A stretch of 64,000 bases of DNA from Thermicanus aegyptius DSM 12793 (GTDB lineage: Bacteria > Bacillota > Bacilli > Thermicanales > Thermicanaceae), in contig NZ_KI783301.1 in NCBI RefSeq assembly GCF_000510645.1, forward strand, positions 688,086 to 752,085, written 5' to 3'. Numbering within the stretch: the stretch's first letter is position 1; each line of letters begins with the position of its first letter. The translations under genes were made by a program, and so were the position numbers. Under the pieces are notes generated by a model. That model was not told the origin of the DNA. It worked only from the letters and a program-made list of their open reading frames with translations, and ran no database searches. This document shows, one piece after another, positions 36,844 to 49,363 of this stretch.

Positions 36844-37206
36844 ATGGGGAATCGAATACTCGTAGTTGATGATGCAGCATTTATGCGAATGATGATTAAA
36901 GACATTTTAACGAAAAATGGCTTTGAGGTGGTAGGGGAAGCGACCGATGGAGTGCAGGCGGTGGAGAAATACCAGGAATTAAAACCGGATCTGGTCACCT
37001 TAGACATAACAATGCCTGAGATGGACGGCATTGAAGCGTTGAAACAGATCCGAAAAATAGACCCCCAGGCCAAGGTGATCATGTGTTCCGCCATGGGCCA
37101 ACAAGCCATGGTGATTGATTCGATTCAAGCGGGAGCGAAAGATTTTATCGTAAAACCGTTTCAGGCAGACCGGGTGATCGAAGCGGTCCGGAAAACATTG
37201 GGGTAA
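36844..37206 (+). CDS. cheY: Chemotaxis response regulator CheY
   Basis: A 120-residue single receiver domain. Acid pocket DD at 9-10, phosphorylated Asp54 in LVTLDITMPEMDG, and the conserved switch Ser and Lys (MCSAMG; IVKPFQ). Phosphorylated by CheA; binds FliM. Start follows GAGGATCATGG. Confidence 0.97.
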   Translation: MGNRILVVDDAAFMRMMIKDILTKNGFEVVGEATDGVQAVEKYQELKPDLVTLDITMPEMDGIEALKQIRKIDPQAKVIMCSAMGQQAMVIDSIQAGAKDFIVKPFQADRVIEAVRKTLG

Positions 37207-42900: not shown

Positions 42901-44148
42901 TTGAGGGTAAAACGGTATATCGCTTCCTCTGTGAATGAAGCGGTGGAAAAGATTCGTAAAGATCTAGGCAGCGATGCCATTATTCTCGATACGAAGAAGG
43001 TAAGCACCAGGGGCTTCTTAGGTTTATTTAAGCAAGTTCACTTTGAAGTGATCGCAGCGATCGATGAACCGGCGCCTTCTTTTAAGCCAATTCCATCGAT
43101 TCCGGAGGAAAAGAAGATCTCTCCACCCCCTCTTTCCGCAGAGACCAAACCAAAAATGGAAGCCACCCTCCCTACAGCTCAAGAACAAGGGAGGGAACCA
43201 AACCAGGGAACCTCTCTAAGCGAAAAAGGGAAACAAAAAGAAAAAGATTCCCCCACGCAAGGGGACGGGGAAGATCCATGGCAAAAGATGGTCCTACAGG
43301 AAATGAAAGAAATGAGAAGCCTAATTCGGACCTGGGTGGAAGGACGGAACTTTCCTTCTTCCCTACCGGAAGATTATAAATCCCTCTATACTCACCTGAT
43401 CGAACAAGAAGTGGAAGAGGAGTTGGTCATCAAACTCTTCATCGATCTTATGGAGAATCATGGGGCTCCCCAGTCGGAAGCAGAGGCGAGGATGCGGGTT
43501 AAAGAAAAGTTGATCGAATGGATTCGTCCACGCCTAACGGGAGGAATAAAGTCTTCGACTCGCCTCGTTCATATCATCGGACCGACAGGAGTGGGAAAGA
43601 CCACCACCATTGCGAAGCTCGCCTCCGAATACCTTCTCCATCGCAAAAAAAAGGTGGCTTTCCTTACCTCCGACACCTATCGGATCGCCGCGATTGATCA
43701 ACTGAAGACCTATTCAAACATTCTCAATATCCCGATGGAGGTGATTTTTTCACCCAAGGATCTGCCTCCGGCCCTTTCCCGCGTTTCCCATTATGATCTC
43801 ATTCTGATGGATACTGCAGGTCGGAATTATCGAGACCGGGTTTATCTCAACGAAATGAAAGAACTTCTTACTTCCTCTCTTCCTTCGGAGACCTACCTTG
43901 TCTTAAGTTTAACCACCAAATTTAAGGATATGAAAGAACTGGTAGAAGAATTTTTGCAGCTTGGTATCGACCATGTCATTTTTACGAAACTGGATGAGAC
44001 GCTAACCCATGGTGCCATCTTCAATCTTGCTTACCATTATCCTATCACCCTATCATATATTACCAACGGCCAGAGCGTACCAGATGATCTCTTATTTTTG
44101 ACGCCGGAACGGTTCGCCGATTTGCTGTTAGGGGGAGAGAAATCATGA
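42901..44148 (+). CDS. flhF: Flagellar positioning GTPase FlhF
   Basis: A 415-residue SRP-type GTPase. RVKRYIASSVNEAVEKIRKD is the FlhF N-terminus, then a low-complexity basic/acidic region (60-130), the N domain, and the GTPase domain with Walker A GPTGVGKT (227-234), DTYRIAAIDQLKTY and the G3 motif DTAGRN. Works with FlhG to place flagella. TTG start three bases after flhA; it overlaps flhG by 4 bases. Confidence 0.95.
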   Translation: MRVKRYIASSVNEAVEKIRKDLGSDAIILDTKKVSTRGFLGLFKQVHFEVIAAIDEPAPSFKPIPSIPEEKKISPPPLSAETKPKMEATLPTAQEQGREPNQGTSLSEKGKQKEKDSPTQGDGEDPWQKMVLQEMKEMRSLIRTWVEGRNFPSSLPEDYKSLYTHLIEQEVEEELVIKLFIDLMENHGAPQSEAEARMRVKEKLIEWIRPRLTGGIKSSTRLVHIIGPTGVGKTTTIAKLASEYLLHRKKKVAFLTSDTYRIAAIDQLKTYSNILNIPMEVIFSPKDLPPALSRVSHYDLILMDTAGRNYRDRVYLNEMKELLTSSLPSETYLVLSLTTKFKDMKELVEEFLQLGIDHVIFTKLDETLTHGAIFNLAYHYPITLSYITNGQSVPDDLLFLTPERFADLLLGGEKS

Positions 44149-45011
44149 AAGATCAAGCTGATGCTCTCCGTCGCCATTTGGGAGCGAAAGAAGGTAAACC
44201 GCCTGCTAAGGTAATCACGATTACCAGTGGAAAAGGGGGTGTGGGAAAGTCCAATTTTTCCCTTAATTTTGCTCTGGCGTTGATCCAATTAGGAAAGAAG
44301 GTGGTCATCCTCGATGCCGATTTAGGGCTGGCCAACATCGATGTTCTGATGGGGATTTCCCCCAAAGGAAATCTGTTCCAAATGATTGAGCAGGGCCTCT
44401 CCATATGGGATATACTGGAAAGAGGACCTGGAGGAGTAGAGTTAATCGCCAGCCAGTCCGGTTTTACCCGCTTGCTTAGCTTAGATGAGCAGGCATTAAG
44501 CAATCTTATGAATCAGCTTCACAGGTTGGATGGATATGCCGACTTCATCCTAATCGATACGGGAGCGGGACTCACAAAAGAAGCCCTTTACTTCATCCTC
44601 TCCTCCGATGAGGTGATTCTCATTACAACGCCTGAACCTACTTCATTAACCGACGCTTATGCGGTGATCAAAATGATTCATCTGAAGGATCCTTTTATTC
44701 TTCCAAACCTGGTGGTAAATCGGGTTCACTCCTCACAGGAGGGAAGAAGTACAGGGGAACGCTTATCAATGGTGGTCCAAAAGTTTCTTCATATGGAACT
44801 CCCTTTGCTGGGGTTTATCCATGAAGATGCTCACGTAGGATGGGGAGTACGCCGGCAAGAACCCTTTATTCTTCTCTATCCCGAGGCAAAAGCATCGGAA
44901 GATTTGAGGGCTCTTGCCAGAAGTTATCTCTCCCTGCCTCTTCCAAAGATCGAGAAAGAAGGGAGGGGAATGAAAGGATTTTTGCAACGAATGTTGAATT
45001 TTATTAAATAA
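44145..45011 (+). CDS. flhG: Flagellar number regulator FlhG (MinD-like ATPase, YlxH)
   Basis: A 288-residue P-loop ATPase with the deviant Walker A KGGVGKSNFSLN and DADLGLANIDVLMG. It stimulates FlhF GTPase; the short N-terminal stretch DQADALRRHL fits the FlhF-activating peptide. Start overlaps the flhF stop (ATGA). C-terminus is basic and amphipathic (MKGFLQRMLNFIK), as in membrane-targeting MinD-type proteins. Confidence 0.94.
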   Translation: MKDQADALRRHLGAKEGKPPAKVITITSGKGGVGKSNFSLNFALALIQLGKKVVILDADLGLANIDVLMGISPKGNLFQMIEQGLSIWDILERGPGGVELIASQSGFTRLLSLDEQALSNLMNQLHRLDGYADFILIDTGAGLTKEALYFILSSDEVILITTPEPTSLTDAYAVIKMIHLKDPFILPNLVVNRVHSSQEGRSTGERLSMVVQKFLHMELPLLGFIHEDAHVGWGVRRQEPFILLYPEAKASEDLRALARSYLSLPLPKIEKEGRGMKGFLQRMLNFIK

Positions 45012-45055
45012 GGTCTTTTCAACGAAAATGTTGTCGAAAAAGGCTTTTCCTTAGG

Positions 45056-45700
45056 GTGAAGGATGTGGAGAAATTGGTACAATCGATGGACAAGTCTAAG
45101 AACAGGGTGGAGGAAATTGTAGCCATCGGCACATCGACCGGTGGCCCGAAAACCTTAGAGGTGGTGATCCGACATCTCCCTCCCCATTATCCTTACCCGA
45201 TTCTGGTTGTCCAACACATGCCGTCCGGTTTTACCAAAGCGATGGCGGATCGCCTCAATGCGATCTCTTCCCTTACGGTGAGTGAGGCGGTCCAAGGAGA
45301 AGAGCTGGAACCTGGACATGTTTACATAGCGCCAGGGAATCATCACATGCAGGTAAAGCGATCCCAAGCATATCATTACTTTCTTCAGATTGATGGGACA
45401 ACTCCTCCACGCGGGGGGCACCGTCCTTCCGTTGATGTCTTGTTTGAATCCCTTGCTCCTCTCCACGAGGTGAAAAAGACCATTATTTTGCTTACGGGAA
45501 TGGGGAGCGACGGTACGGCCGGATTGCGAAAAATCAAAGAGGTTTCCAATCCGAAAGAGGTGACGGCGATCGGCGAGTCGGAAGAATCTTGTGTGGTATT
45601 CGGAATGCCTAGATCGGCGATTGAAGAAGGGTTAATTGATCTGATACTTACCAAAGAAAAAATCGCAGAATATTTACGGGCCAAAGTGTCCGGGAGGTGA
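45056..45700 (+). CDS. cheB: Stand-alone CheB methylesterase domain (no receiver)
   Basis: CheB removes methyl groups from chemoreceptors. This protein has 214 residues and consists of the catalytic domain alone: Ser27 in GTSTGG, His54 in QHMPSGF and Asp152 in LLTGMGSDGTAGL form the expected triad. The usual N-terminal receiver domain is missing, and only 44 bases separate it from flhG, so no receiver is hidden upstream. Without that domain CheA cannot control it by phosphorylation in the usual way. GTG start; it overlaps the cheA start region. Confidence 0.93.
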   Translation: MKDVEKLVQSMDKSKNRVEEIVAIGTSTGGPKTLEVVIRHLPPHYPYPILVVQHMPSGFTKAMADRLNAISSLTVSEAVQGEELEPGHVYIAPGNHHMQVKRSQAYHYFLQIDGTTPPRGGHRPSVDVLFESLAPLHEVKKTIILLTGMGSDGTAGLRKIKEVSNPKEVTAIGESEESCVVFGMPRSAIEEGLIDLILTKEKIAEYLRAKVSGR

Positions 45701-45705
45701 AGCTC

Positions 45706-47754
45706 ATGGAACTTAATCAATATCTGGATATGTTTCTGGAAGAGTCGAAAGAGAATCTTCAGGCGATCAACGAAAATCTCCTCAAACTGGAAGGCGAACC
45801 GAACAATCTCTCCTATGTACAGGTGATTTTTCGTGCCGCTCACACGTTAAAAGGAATGTCGGCCACCATGGGTTTTGAAGATTTGGCCACGCTAACCCAC
45901 GAGATGGAAAACGTGTTGGACCAAATTCGAAATGAGAAGATTGCCGTAAACGAAGGCATTATGAATCAACTCTTCTCCGCCGTAGATCGCTTGGAGGAGA
46001 TGATTGCGGCAATTGAAAACGGGGAGGACGGAAAGATGGATGTGAGCAAAGAGGTATCCTCCCTTCGGAAAATACTCACAAGCGGCGGAGAAGCGGCGAA
46101 CGAGGATGAAAAGGTGAAACCGACGGCCCCCTCACCTGTAGAGAAAACGTATGAATATGATTCCTATCAAGTAAATATTCTCCTCCAGTCCCTAAGGAAC
46201 GGATATCAGGCCTTTGAAATCGAAGTGGAACTCGATGAAAGGACCATGCTGAAGGCGGCACGGGCTTACATGGTTTACTCCGCCCTGGAGGAAATAGGGG
46301 AAGTGATCCGCACGCTTCCTTCCGTAGATGAATTGGAGGAAGAGAAGTTTGATCGCAGTTTCTCTCTCACCCTGATCACGATGCTGTCCAAAGAAGAGGT
46401 AGAAAAGACGATCAATCGGATTTCGGAGATTCGAAGAGTAGAGGTGGTCCGCCTATCGAAAGGGAGCATAAAGAGCCTTAATGAGGTAGCTGCGTCCAGT
46501 GCCATGACGGAAGAAAAGGAGGGGGTAAGTCCAAACCTTTCCCAACCAAAAGATGGGGAGAAGGGCGAAGAGGAGAGGGATGTCCATCCAATACGGAGAC
46601 ATCATAGCTCGAAAACGATCCGGGTAGACACGGAACGATTGGAGAGATTGATGAACCTCTTCAGCGAATTGGTGATCGATAGGGGCCGCTTAGAACAAAT
46701 TGCCCGGGAAATAGGATCTCCCTCCCTCACGGAAGTGGTTGAACATATGAGCCGAATCAGCAGCGACCTGCAAAACTTGGTACTCACCATTCGGATGGTT
46801 CCTGTAGAGCAGGTATTTAACCGATTTCCACGCATGGTGCGGGATTTGGCAAAAGAGTTGGGCAAACAGGTTAATCTTACCATTACGGGGGCGGAGACGG
46901 AGCTGGATCGAACGGTGATCGATGAAATCGGAGATCCTCTGGTTCACCTATTACGAAATGCAATCGATCACGGATTGGAGTCGACGGAGGAGCGGAAGAA
47001 GAAAGGAAAGCCGATCCCAGGGGAGATTTCCTTGCGGGCCTATCACAGTGGAAACCATGTCTTTATCGAAGTAAGTGATGATGGCCAAGGCATCGACCGG
47101 GAGAAAGTTCTAAAAAAGGCCGTAGCTCAAGGCTTAGTCACCGAGAGGGAAGCGACGCAACTCAAGGAAGAAGAGGTTTATCGCCTTCTCTTTCATTCCG
47201 GTTTTAGCACGGCGGAGAAAGTGTCCGACATCTCCGGAAGAGGTGTTGGACTTGATGTGGTGCGTAGCAAGATAGAAGCGTTGGGAGGAAGTGTTTCGGT
47301 TCTGTCGGAGAGAGGGAAAGGGAGCACGTTCCGCATTCAATTACCTCTAACCCTCTCCATCCTCTCTGCCATGTTGGTAGAAATAGAGAGAGAAAAATAT
47401 GCCATTCCTATTAATTCGATCCTGGAAACTCTCTCTCTTCCCAAAGAGGAAATTCGTGTCGCCCATAAACAACCTGTCCTTGATTTCCGTGGAAAGGTGG
47501 TCCCTCTCCTCTCCCTGAAGGAACTCTTTTCCATCCCTTCAAGTGGAGAGGAAAGAGAGGAGGTCTCCGTAGTCGTCATTCGTAAAGGGGAAAAATTGGT
47601 GGGCATCGAGGTGAATGATTTCTTAGGGCAACAAGAAATCGTGCTGAAATCGATGGGAAAATACTTGCACAACCTTTTCGCCATATCCGGAGCTACGATT
47701 CTGGGGGATGGACAGGTTGCATTGATCCTTGATCCCAACGCGTTGATTAAATAG
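45706..47754 (+). CDS. cheA: Chemotaxis histidine kinase CheA
   Basis: A 682-residue kinase: HPt domain with His46 (RAAHTLKGMSATMG), a P2 domain (about 150-255), the dimerisation domain, the ATPase domain (HLLRNAIDHGLESTEER; DDGQGIDREKV; GRGVGLDVV) and a CheW-like end. It phosphorylates CheY; CheB here lacks a target receiver. ATG 45706 is chosen for GGGAGGTGAAG; GTG 45697 overlaps cheB. Confidence 0.97.
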   Translation: MELNQYLDMFLEESKENLQAINENLLKLEGEPNNLSYVQVIFRAAHTLKGMSATMGFEDLATLTHEMENVLDQIRNEKIAVNEGIMNQLFSAVDRLEEMIAAIENGEDGKMDVSKEVSSLRKILTSGGEAANEDEKVKPTAPSPVEKTYEYDSYQVNILLQSLRNGYQAFEIEVELDERTMLKAARAYMVYSALEEIGEVIRTLPSVDELEEEKFDRSFSLTLITMLSKEEVEKTINRISEIRRVEVVRLSKGSIKSLNEVAASSAMTEEKEGVSPNLSQPKDGEKGEEERDVHPIRRHHSSKTIRVDTERLERLMNLFSELVIDRGRLEQIAREIGSPSLTEVVEHMSRISSDLQNLVLTIRMVPVEQVFNRFPRMVRDLAKELGKQVNLTITGAETELDRTVIDEIGDPLVHLLRNAIDHGLESTEERKKKGKPIPGEISLRAYHSGNHVFIEVSDDGQGIDREKVLKKAVAQGLVTEREATQLKEEEVYRLLFHSGFSTAEKVSDISGRGVGLDVVRSKIEALGGSVSVLSERGKGSTFRIQLPLTLSILSAMLVEIEREKYAIPINSILETLSLPKEEIRVAHKQPVLDFRGKVVPLLSLKELFSIPSSGEEREEVSVVVIRKGEKLVGIEVNDFLGQQEIVLKSMGKYLHNLFAISGATILGDGQVALILDPNALIK

Positions 47755-47790: not shown

Positions 47791-48267
47791 ATGTTGGAAC
47801 AGAGCAAGACCGTGAAAGAAATAAAGGCGATCGTCTTTCGCCTTCAGAACGAAGAGTATGGGGTGGATGTTCAGCAGGTTCGTTCGATCGAACGATTGGA
47901 ACATATTACGAGAGTACCTAATGCCCCCGATTTTGTAAAAGGTGTGATTAACCTGCGGGGGGTTGTTACTCCCGTGATCGATCTGAGGAAGCGTTTTGGA
48001 CTTCCTCTCACATCCTATACCGATCAAACTCGGATTATCATCGTAAGAATCGATGAAATTGAAGTCGGTTTAATCGTAGACGCAGCCAATGATGTGATCG
48101 ATATCCCTGAGGAGATGATTGAAGCGCCGCCTGAAATCGTAGGAGGGGTTGGTGCGGAATACTTGCGTGGGGTCGCCAAGATCGGCACGAGGCTTCTGAT
48201 TCTCTTAAATTTGGAAAAAGTCCTTTTGATGAATGAAGTGGAACAGCTGGAACAATTTGAGGCGTGA
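47791..48267 (+). CDS. cheW: Chemotaxis coupling protein CheW
   Basis: A 158-residue coupling protein joining receptors and CheA. FRLQNEEYGVDVQQVRSIER and VKGVINLRGVVTPVIDLRKR are hallmarks. A TGGAGGGATGAACG site precedes the start; the stop overlaps the cheC start region. Confidence 0.97.
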   Translation: MLEQSKTVKEIKAIVFRLQNEEYGVDVQQVRSIERLEHITRVPNAPDFVKGVINLRGVVTPVIDLRKRFGLPLTSYTDQTRIIIVRIDEIEVGLIVDAANDVIDIPEEMIEAPPEIVGGVGAEYLRGVAKIGTRLLILLNLEKVLLMNEVEQLEQFEA

Positions 48268-48269
48268 GG

Positions 48270-48884
48270 ATGACTGGGGGATTTCGTTTGGAACCACTTC
48301 AGTTGGACATATTGCGTGAAATAGGGAACATTGGGGCAGGACATGCCGCCACTTCTCTCTCAAAGATCCTGGGCATGAGAATTGAGATGTCGGTTCCCAA
48401 TGTGGAGATCCTCTCCTTTGATAAGATTGCTCAGTATGTAGGCGAGGATAAACTTGTGGTAGGAATATATATGAGCGTCGAAGGAGACATGACGGGGAGT
48501 ATTTTCTTTCTCATGGGAATAACATCCGCAAAATTTCTTCTCTCCCAGCTTTTTCAAGAGGAGTTGAATGAGAAAGAACCTTTTACAGAGAAAGACCTGG
48601 ATGCTTTGCAAGAGATCGGAAACATATTAACCGGCTCTTACCTAAGCGCACTGGCTGATTTCACCCATCTAACCCTTTATCCGTCGATCCCTTCCATAGC
48701 GGTGGATATGGCCATGGCAATTTTAACGTATGGCATTTTAGAAATTGGGCGGTCCGGCAACGATGCTCTCTTGATCGATACCTCCTTTATGAATGGTTCT
48801 GAAAAGTTGGAGGGTCATTTCTTCTTTATTCCTGATCCATCCTTCTTTCCTACTCTTTTTAAGGCGTTAGGAGTACCCATGTAA
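48270..48884 (+). CDS. cheC: CheY-P phosphatase CheC
   Basis: A 204-residue protein with both CheC catalytic motifs: EIGNIGAGHAATSLSKILG near the N-terminus and EIGNILTGSYLSALADF near residue 115. It removes phosphate from CheY~P and binds CheD. ATG 48270 is preferred over GTG 48264 because GAGG lies 7 bases before it. cheD begins one base inside its stop. Confidence 0.95.
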   Translation: MTGGFRLEPLQLDILREIGNIGAGHAATSLSKILGMRIEMSVPNVEILSFDKIAQYVGEDKLVVGIYMSVEGDMTGSIFFLMGITSAKFLLSQLFQEELNEKEPFTEKDLDALQEIGNILTGSYLSALADFTHLTLYPSIPSIAVDMAMAILTYGILEIGRSGNDALLIDTSFMNGSEKLEGHFFFIPDPSFFPTLFKALGVPM

Positions 48885-49363
48885 TGTACGAGATAAAGGT
48901 TGGAATTGCCGATTTAAACATTACTTTTGCCCCAAACCGATTGCGGACAACAGGATTGGGGTCCTGCGTAGGGATCACGCTGTACGATGAAAGCATCCAT
49001 TTGGCGGGTCTCGCCCATGTGATGTTGCCAAGTTCCGAATTAGCAAAAGGAGAGGTTCAGGTGGCAAAATATGCCGACACAGCCATTCCCGAGCTCTTGA
49101 TGCGCATGGAAAGGGCAGGTGGGCGAAGATCCCGCATGAAAGCGAAGCTGGCCGGCGGAGCCCAGATGTTTCAAAATAAGGGGAATGACCTTCTTCGAAT
49201 TGGTCCCAGGAATGTAGAAGCTTCTCTAATCGAGCTCCGCCGGCTACAAATCCCGGTGGTAGCGCAGGATACGGGCGGTAATTATGGCAGAACCATCGAA
49301 ATCGAGGCAGAGACGGGAATTCTCCGCGTATGGACCGTTTATCATGGGGAAAAGGTGATCTGA
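48884..49363 (+). CDS. cheD: Chemoreceptor glutamine deamidase CheD
   Basis: A 159-residue deamidase. Catalytic Cys28 in GLGSCVGI and His45 in GLAHVMLP are present, with KLAGGAQMF downstream. It deamidates receptors and activates CheC. The start overlaps cheC (TAATG), so translation is coupled. Confidence 0.96.
   Translation: MYEIKVGIADLNITFAPNRLRTTGLGSCVGITLYDESIHLAGLAHVMLPSSELAKGEVQVAKYADTAIPELLMRMERAGGRRSRMKAKLAGGAQMFQNKGNDLLRIGPRNVEASLIELRRLQIPVVAQDTGGNYGRTIEIEAETGILRVWTVYHGEKVI

Follow-up and report, generated by a model that had tools for sequence, protein, structure and literature searches.

The window, the whole stretch of 64,000 nucleotides of Thermicanus aegyptius DSM 12793 DNA that was analysed, contains a flagellar and chemotaxis operon with the gene order flhA-flhF-flhG-cheB-cheA-cheW-cheC-cheD-sigD (Table 1). 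The Bacillus-type layout is present in that cheA, cheW, cheC, cheD and a sigma factor gene follow flhF and flhG, but the two-domain CheB typical of the slot between flhG and cheA is absent. Both CheC and CheD are complete by Pfam, and no receiver domain is found by Pfam in CheA.

Table 1. Features of the chemotaxis locus and their positions in the window
Feature	Position	Strand	Basis or remark
cheY of the flagellar operon, some 8 kb before cheB	36844..37206	+	Groups with stand-alone CheYs
flhG/ylxH, MinD-like ATPase, upstream edge of the slot	44145..45011	+	Pfam ParA/AAA_31; same neighbour in relatives
Intergenic gap of 44 nt between flhG and cheB	45012..45055	+	Receiver and linker of several hundred nt in full-length relatives
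cheB without receiver domain	45056..45700	+	Pfam PF01339 only; catalytic residues; AlphaFold model; sole CheB
cheA with Hpt, P2, H-kinase_dim, HATPase_c and CheW domains	45697..47754	+	Pfam
cheW	47791..48267	+	Pfam
cheC, CheY-P phosphatase family, two ExxN motifs (REIGN, QEIGN)	48264..48884	+	Pfam CheC, CheX-like; motifs from translation
cheD, receptor deamidase/CheC partner family, SCVG cysteine	48884..49363	+	Pfam; motif from translation

The cheB frame opens with a GTG at 45056 and encodes a product of 214 amino acids; its exact start is uncertain, with a further candidate, an ATG at 45086, downstream. Pfam detects CheB_methylest alone (PF01339, E 2.6e-60, profile positions 1-174 of 174) and no Response_reg match in this product. 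The methylesterase domain is complete (residues 22-207) and is preceded by about 18-20 residues that are predicted to form a helix. The catalytic residues Ser27, His54 and Asp152, found in the motifs GTSTGG, VVQHM and GMGSDG, are invariant in an alignment of 45 CheBs. The AlphaFold model (mean pLDDT 96.2) superposes on the catalytic domain of Thermotoga maritima CheB, the closest solved structure (3SFT, rmsd 1.2 Å, 47% identity), and also on that of Salmonella CheB (1CHD). The protein solved in 3SFT was a construct made for crystallisation that holds just the catalytic domain.

Only 107 nt separate the flhG (ylxH) stop, which ends just before 45012, from the esterase core. Relatives that carry a receiver at this slot have 457-880 nt in the same place, and receiver-less ones have 11-180 nt, except in a Lachnospiraceae MAG (L092), where 918 nt without a receiver match, probably holding an intervening gene, lie between flhG and a receiver-less cheB. 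A CheB-receiver HMM gave no match in any frame of that strand in the 1.5 kb upstream. Room for a receiver of about 120 residues is absent, whichever cheB start applies. Because there is neither a Response_reg domain in the product nor a receiver match upstream, the gene is, on sequence grounds, a CheB-family esterase and not a classical response-regulator CheB with a phospho-acceptor Asp. The earlier note had described a CheB without its receiver domain and with all catalytic residues present, and both points hold; its argument that a 44-base gap excludes a hidden receiver is right in the exclusion, which follows from the 107 nt, but the 44 nt figure is valid only if the GTG is the start. That a sequencing error or a mis-called start conceals a receiver is extremely improbable. 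Two relatives (L044 and L063) do have a receiver and an esterase in two frames, as from a frameshift, but the Thermicanus locus offers only 107 nt with a receiver in no frame, and the same state recurs in a relative from the order and in several one-contig genomes. The short distance and the lack of an HMM match refute this possibility for the Thermicanus locus. The split genes of L044 and L063 consist of overlapping frames of 202+217 and 195+196 codons, which may be frameshifts or natural splits, and their receivers belong to the CheB group in the receiver tree.

This is the only CheB in the genome (3.66 Mb, one contig), with no second copy, full-length or otherwise. A single CheR gene lies between ndk-like and aroC-like genes. 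The genome has no CheV, because its four CheW domains are all accounted for by two CheWs and two CheAs. There are 34 receiver domains, and those that stand alone are two CheYs, one Spo0F-like protein and one that adjoins a histidine kinase. In the receiver tree a supported branch divides 39 CheB receivers from all four of the stand-alone ones, so none of these four looks like a detached CheB receiver. Since the receiver is truly missing and this genome has neither a full-length CheB elsewhere nor, among the four stand-alone receivers examined, a separate one of CheB type, both of which the earlier note had named as findings that would count against it, direct phospho-feedback from CheA to CheB must be absent. 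The proposed break in the loop from CheA to receptor methylation is thereby upheld. Thirteen genes match the MCP signalling domain above the Pfam cut-off, and a methylation-site-like motif occurs in 10 of the 13 proteins. A second chemosensory cluster (L008:5254-9834; G000:C1:1179253-1183833) encodes an MCP, CheW, CheA and a CheY-like protein, and has no CheB, CheR, CheC or CheD beside it.

A CheB without a receiver domain is already known from Campylobacter jejuni (PMC340952) and helps to define the F3 chemosensory class of Campylobacterota (PMC9321776, PMC3879368), so the Thermicanus protein is not a new kind. Both consist of a methylesterase domain without a receiver. However, the F3 class has a cheVAW core operon and an additional receiver domain in CheA, neither of which is found in Thermicanus, and Thermicanus has CheC and CheD. 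The operon resembles that of Bacillus subtilis (flhG-cheB-cheA-cheW-cheC-cheD-sigD) in gene order, neighbours and CheB family, but B. subtilis has a CheB with a receiver as well as CheV, and Thermicanus has neither. In domain content the protein matches the laboratory construct CheBc (E. coli CheB residues 147-349, PMC5809149), so that constitutive activity without phospho-regulation would be expected. Unlike CheBc, it occurs naturally as the only allele, has a short N-terminus of its own and is found alongside CheC and CheD. In a literature search of mainly open-access papers we found no report of receiver-less CheB in Bacillota, nor of its recurrence in Bacilli with CheC/CheD.

The same domain loss, for which the earlier note had suggested a survey of relatives, proved to be widespread. 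The sample comprised 399 genomes from the class, 217 of them with CheB. The order was represented by six genomes, in which the Thermicanus genome is the sole one of its family. The only other CheB-bearing genome of the order (G003) has the same receiver-less gene in the same slot. Receiver-less CheB occurs in at least 33 of the 217 CheB-bearing Bacilli genomes, from 13 family codes, and also in the Lachnospiraceae MAG mentioned above. The state was scored by open-frame length and direct inspection of the DNA, as frame length alone undercounts where GC-rich frames are open by chance (L078, L079). In 26 of these at least 33 genomes Pfam finds no second CheB, and CheR is kept in all 23 receiver-less genomes tested. 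Most receiver-less cheB genes occupy the flhG-cheB-cheA slot, and some lie elsewhere. Most of their proteins appear to begin about 5-40 residues before the esterase core, so both receiver and linker have been lost. CheV-sized CheW proteins were found in 13 of 28 relatives with a receiver versus 1 of 22 without, a difference that is not significant once relatedness is considered (independent pairs, sign test p 0.5-1).

Several loci in the sample depart from these arrangements. In L056 (G078) 64 nt separate the end of a true CheY gene from a downstream receiver-less cheB that is followed by cheA-cheW-cheC-cheD, and flhA, flhF and flhG are not in the stretch read. In L043 (G037) cheW comes straight after the cheB in the slot, without a cheA at that place, and cheC lies in two frames. 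The cheB of L076 (G243) has a receiver and is truncated at the C-terminus, its frame ending about 107 positions into the esterase profile. In nine genomes (G010, G042, G062, G088, G099, G143, G145, G164 and G223) a CheB match sits in a frame 1179-1273 residues long; this is the second CheB of the genome, except in G223, where the match is the sole CheB. In those checked, a CheR match lies in a frame of equal length beside it, which points to CheB-CheR fusions.

We reconstructed the history of the receiver from two trees. A tree of FlhA+FlhF+CheA+CheC+CheD for 53 loci requires seven changes of receiver state, at least five of them on well-supported branches, and a topology with all receiver-less loci in one clade is rejected (AU p 6e-59). 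To tell repeated loss apart from the transfer of a single receiver-less gene, we built a further tree from just the esterase domain. It gives eight changes and also rejects a single receiver-less clade (AU p 0.016), although it is weakly resolved, with 10 starred branches and at least two changes forced, and the exact number of changes is uncertain. Both trees are quick searches, and letter composition differs among their rows. That one receiver-less cheB was transferred horizontally into the conserved slot, in place of several independent domain losses, is therefore very unlikely. A large receiver-less cluster in the esterase tree (12 rows of f7 with L041, L042 and L055) would fit such a transfer, but beside the rejected clade the nearest relatives of several receiver-less esterases carry receivers in both trees (L046 with L132, L054 near L129, L043 with L113/L124). 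Receiver-less CheB thus appears to have arisen more than once in Bacilli, by about 7-8 changes, with a single origin rejected by both trees. The direction was probably loss of a receiver and not gain, because all examined CheB receivers lie on one side of one branch and two-domain CheB occurs across phyla. Long branches lead to some receiver-less esterases in the esterase tree (0.93 for the window CheB, 2.03 for L040), which may reflect a shift in function. Between close species pairs of relatives, dN/dS of receiver-less cheB is 0.05-0.18, near the values of cheA and flhG. This indicates that the gene is under purifying selection in these relatives, and therefore that the receiver was repeatedly lost from functional proteins and that cheB is not decaying.

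In E. coli and Salmonella the CheB receiver blocks the active site until phosphorylation exposes it; removal of the regulatory domain activates the enzyme, but less than phosphorylation does, and receptor binding by E. coli CheBc is weak (PMC8609364). E. coli cells with CheBc have no phospho-feedback and still adapt precisely, because the methylation enzymes follow receptor activity (PMC5809149), so loss of phospho-feedback should not be equated with loss of methylation adaptation. Receiver loss is nonetheless costly in the E. coli background: in addition to the weak receptor binding, steady-state activity is bimodal and variable from cell to cell, and the cells spread poorly in soft agar (PMC5809149). 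For B. subtilis the role of CheB phosphorylation has been called unknown, and it has been argued that it makes little sense as feedback, CheY being the logical alternative, yet CheB has been reported to require phosphorylation for activity (PMC340952).

We consider it fairly probable that the Thermicanus gene encodes a functional, CheBc-like CheB gated by the receptors, with kinase feedback running through CheY-P, CheC and CheD. The methylesterase of a standard Bacillus-type che operon would have lost its N-terminal receiver and linker, keeping the catalytic domain behind a short new N-terminus. The esterase would be constitutively competent, and it is in this sense that the earlier suggestion of a constantly active enzyme becomes the best reading. 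It would not be a substrate of CheA and would work with CheR on the receptors, where receptor conformation (activity-dependent demethylation), and not CheB phosphorylation, would set which sites and receptors are demethylated. The rapid feedback that reports kinase activity would fall to CheY-P, acting through CheC and CheD. The methylation cycle is probably still operating, because CheR is kept, cheB is under purifying selection in relatives, and methylation-site-like motifs are present in most of the receptor-domain proteins.

The same evidence bears on the possibility that cheB is decaying or dispensable, with methylation adaptation being abandoned and adaptation left to CheC, CheD and CheY. 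The recurrence of the domain loss agrees with this, and CheC/CheD can carry part of the adaptation of B. subtilis, but with invariant catalytic residues, selection on cheB in relatives, CheR in every receiver-less genome tested and the receptor motifs against it, we regard decay as quite improbable. Adaptation by CheC, CheD and CheY alone, as the earlier note had also suggested, is accordingly less likely than an unswitched methylation cycle, since CheR, CheB and the motifs are all kept. Another protein may regulate the exposed esterase domain. CheY-P, CheC or CheD could act in trans on the surface vacated by the receiver, so that phospho-feedback would be re-routed and not lost. CheC, CheD and CheY are retained nearby in nearly all receiver-less slot loci, but CheC and CheD occupy the same place in operons with a receiver, hence their presence is not specific. 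The CheY gene next to the receiver-less cheB of L056 is suggestive, but no CheB-type receiver is among the stand-alone receivers of the Thermicanus genome. Residues 35 and 62 are near-fixed in CheBs with a receiver and vary in those without; the signal comes mostly from one family, however, and plain relaxation could explain it. Regulation in trans thus seems unlikely to us.

If the reading of a functional, receptor-gated esterase is correct, the repeated loss of the phosphorylation switch challenges how far chemotaxis needs such a switch. More generally, though we offer this only tentatively and think it rather doubtful, CheB phosphorylation could be dispensable in Bacilli with CheC/CheD and have been shed repeatedly because the kinase feeds back to the receptors through CheY-P, CheC and CheD; the bare esterase may, in some lineages, even be bound and controlled directly by CheY-P, CheC or CheD in a re-wired loop. 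Since the losses are natural, repeated and apparently functional, and occur in intact operons with close two-domain relatives, the role of CheB phosphorylation becomes directly testable, and the receiver-less CheBs of Bacilli would provide natural examples of a minimal activity-dependent adaptation circuit.
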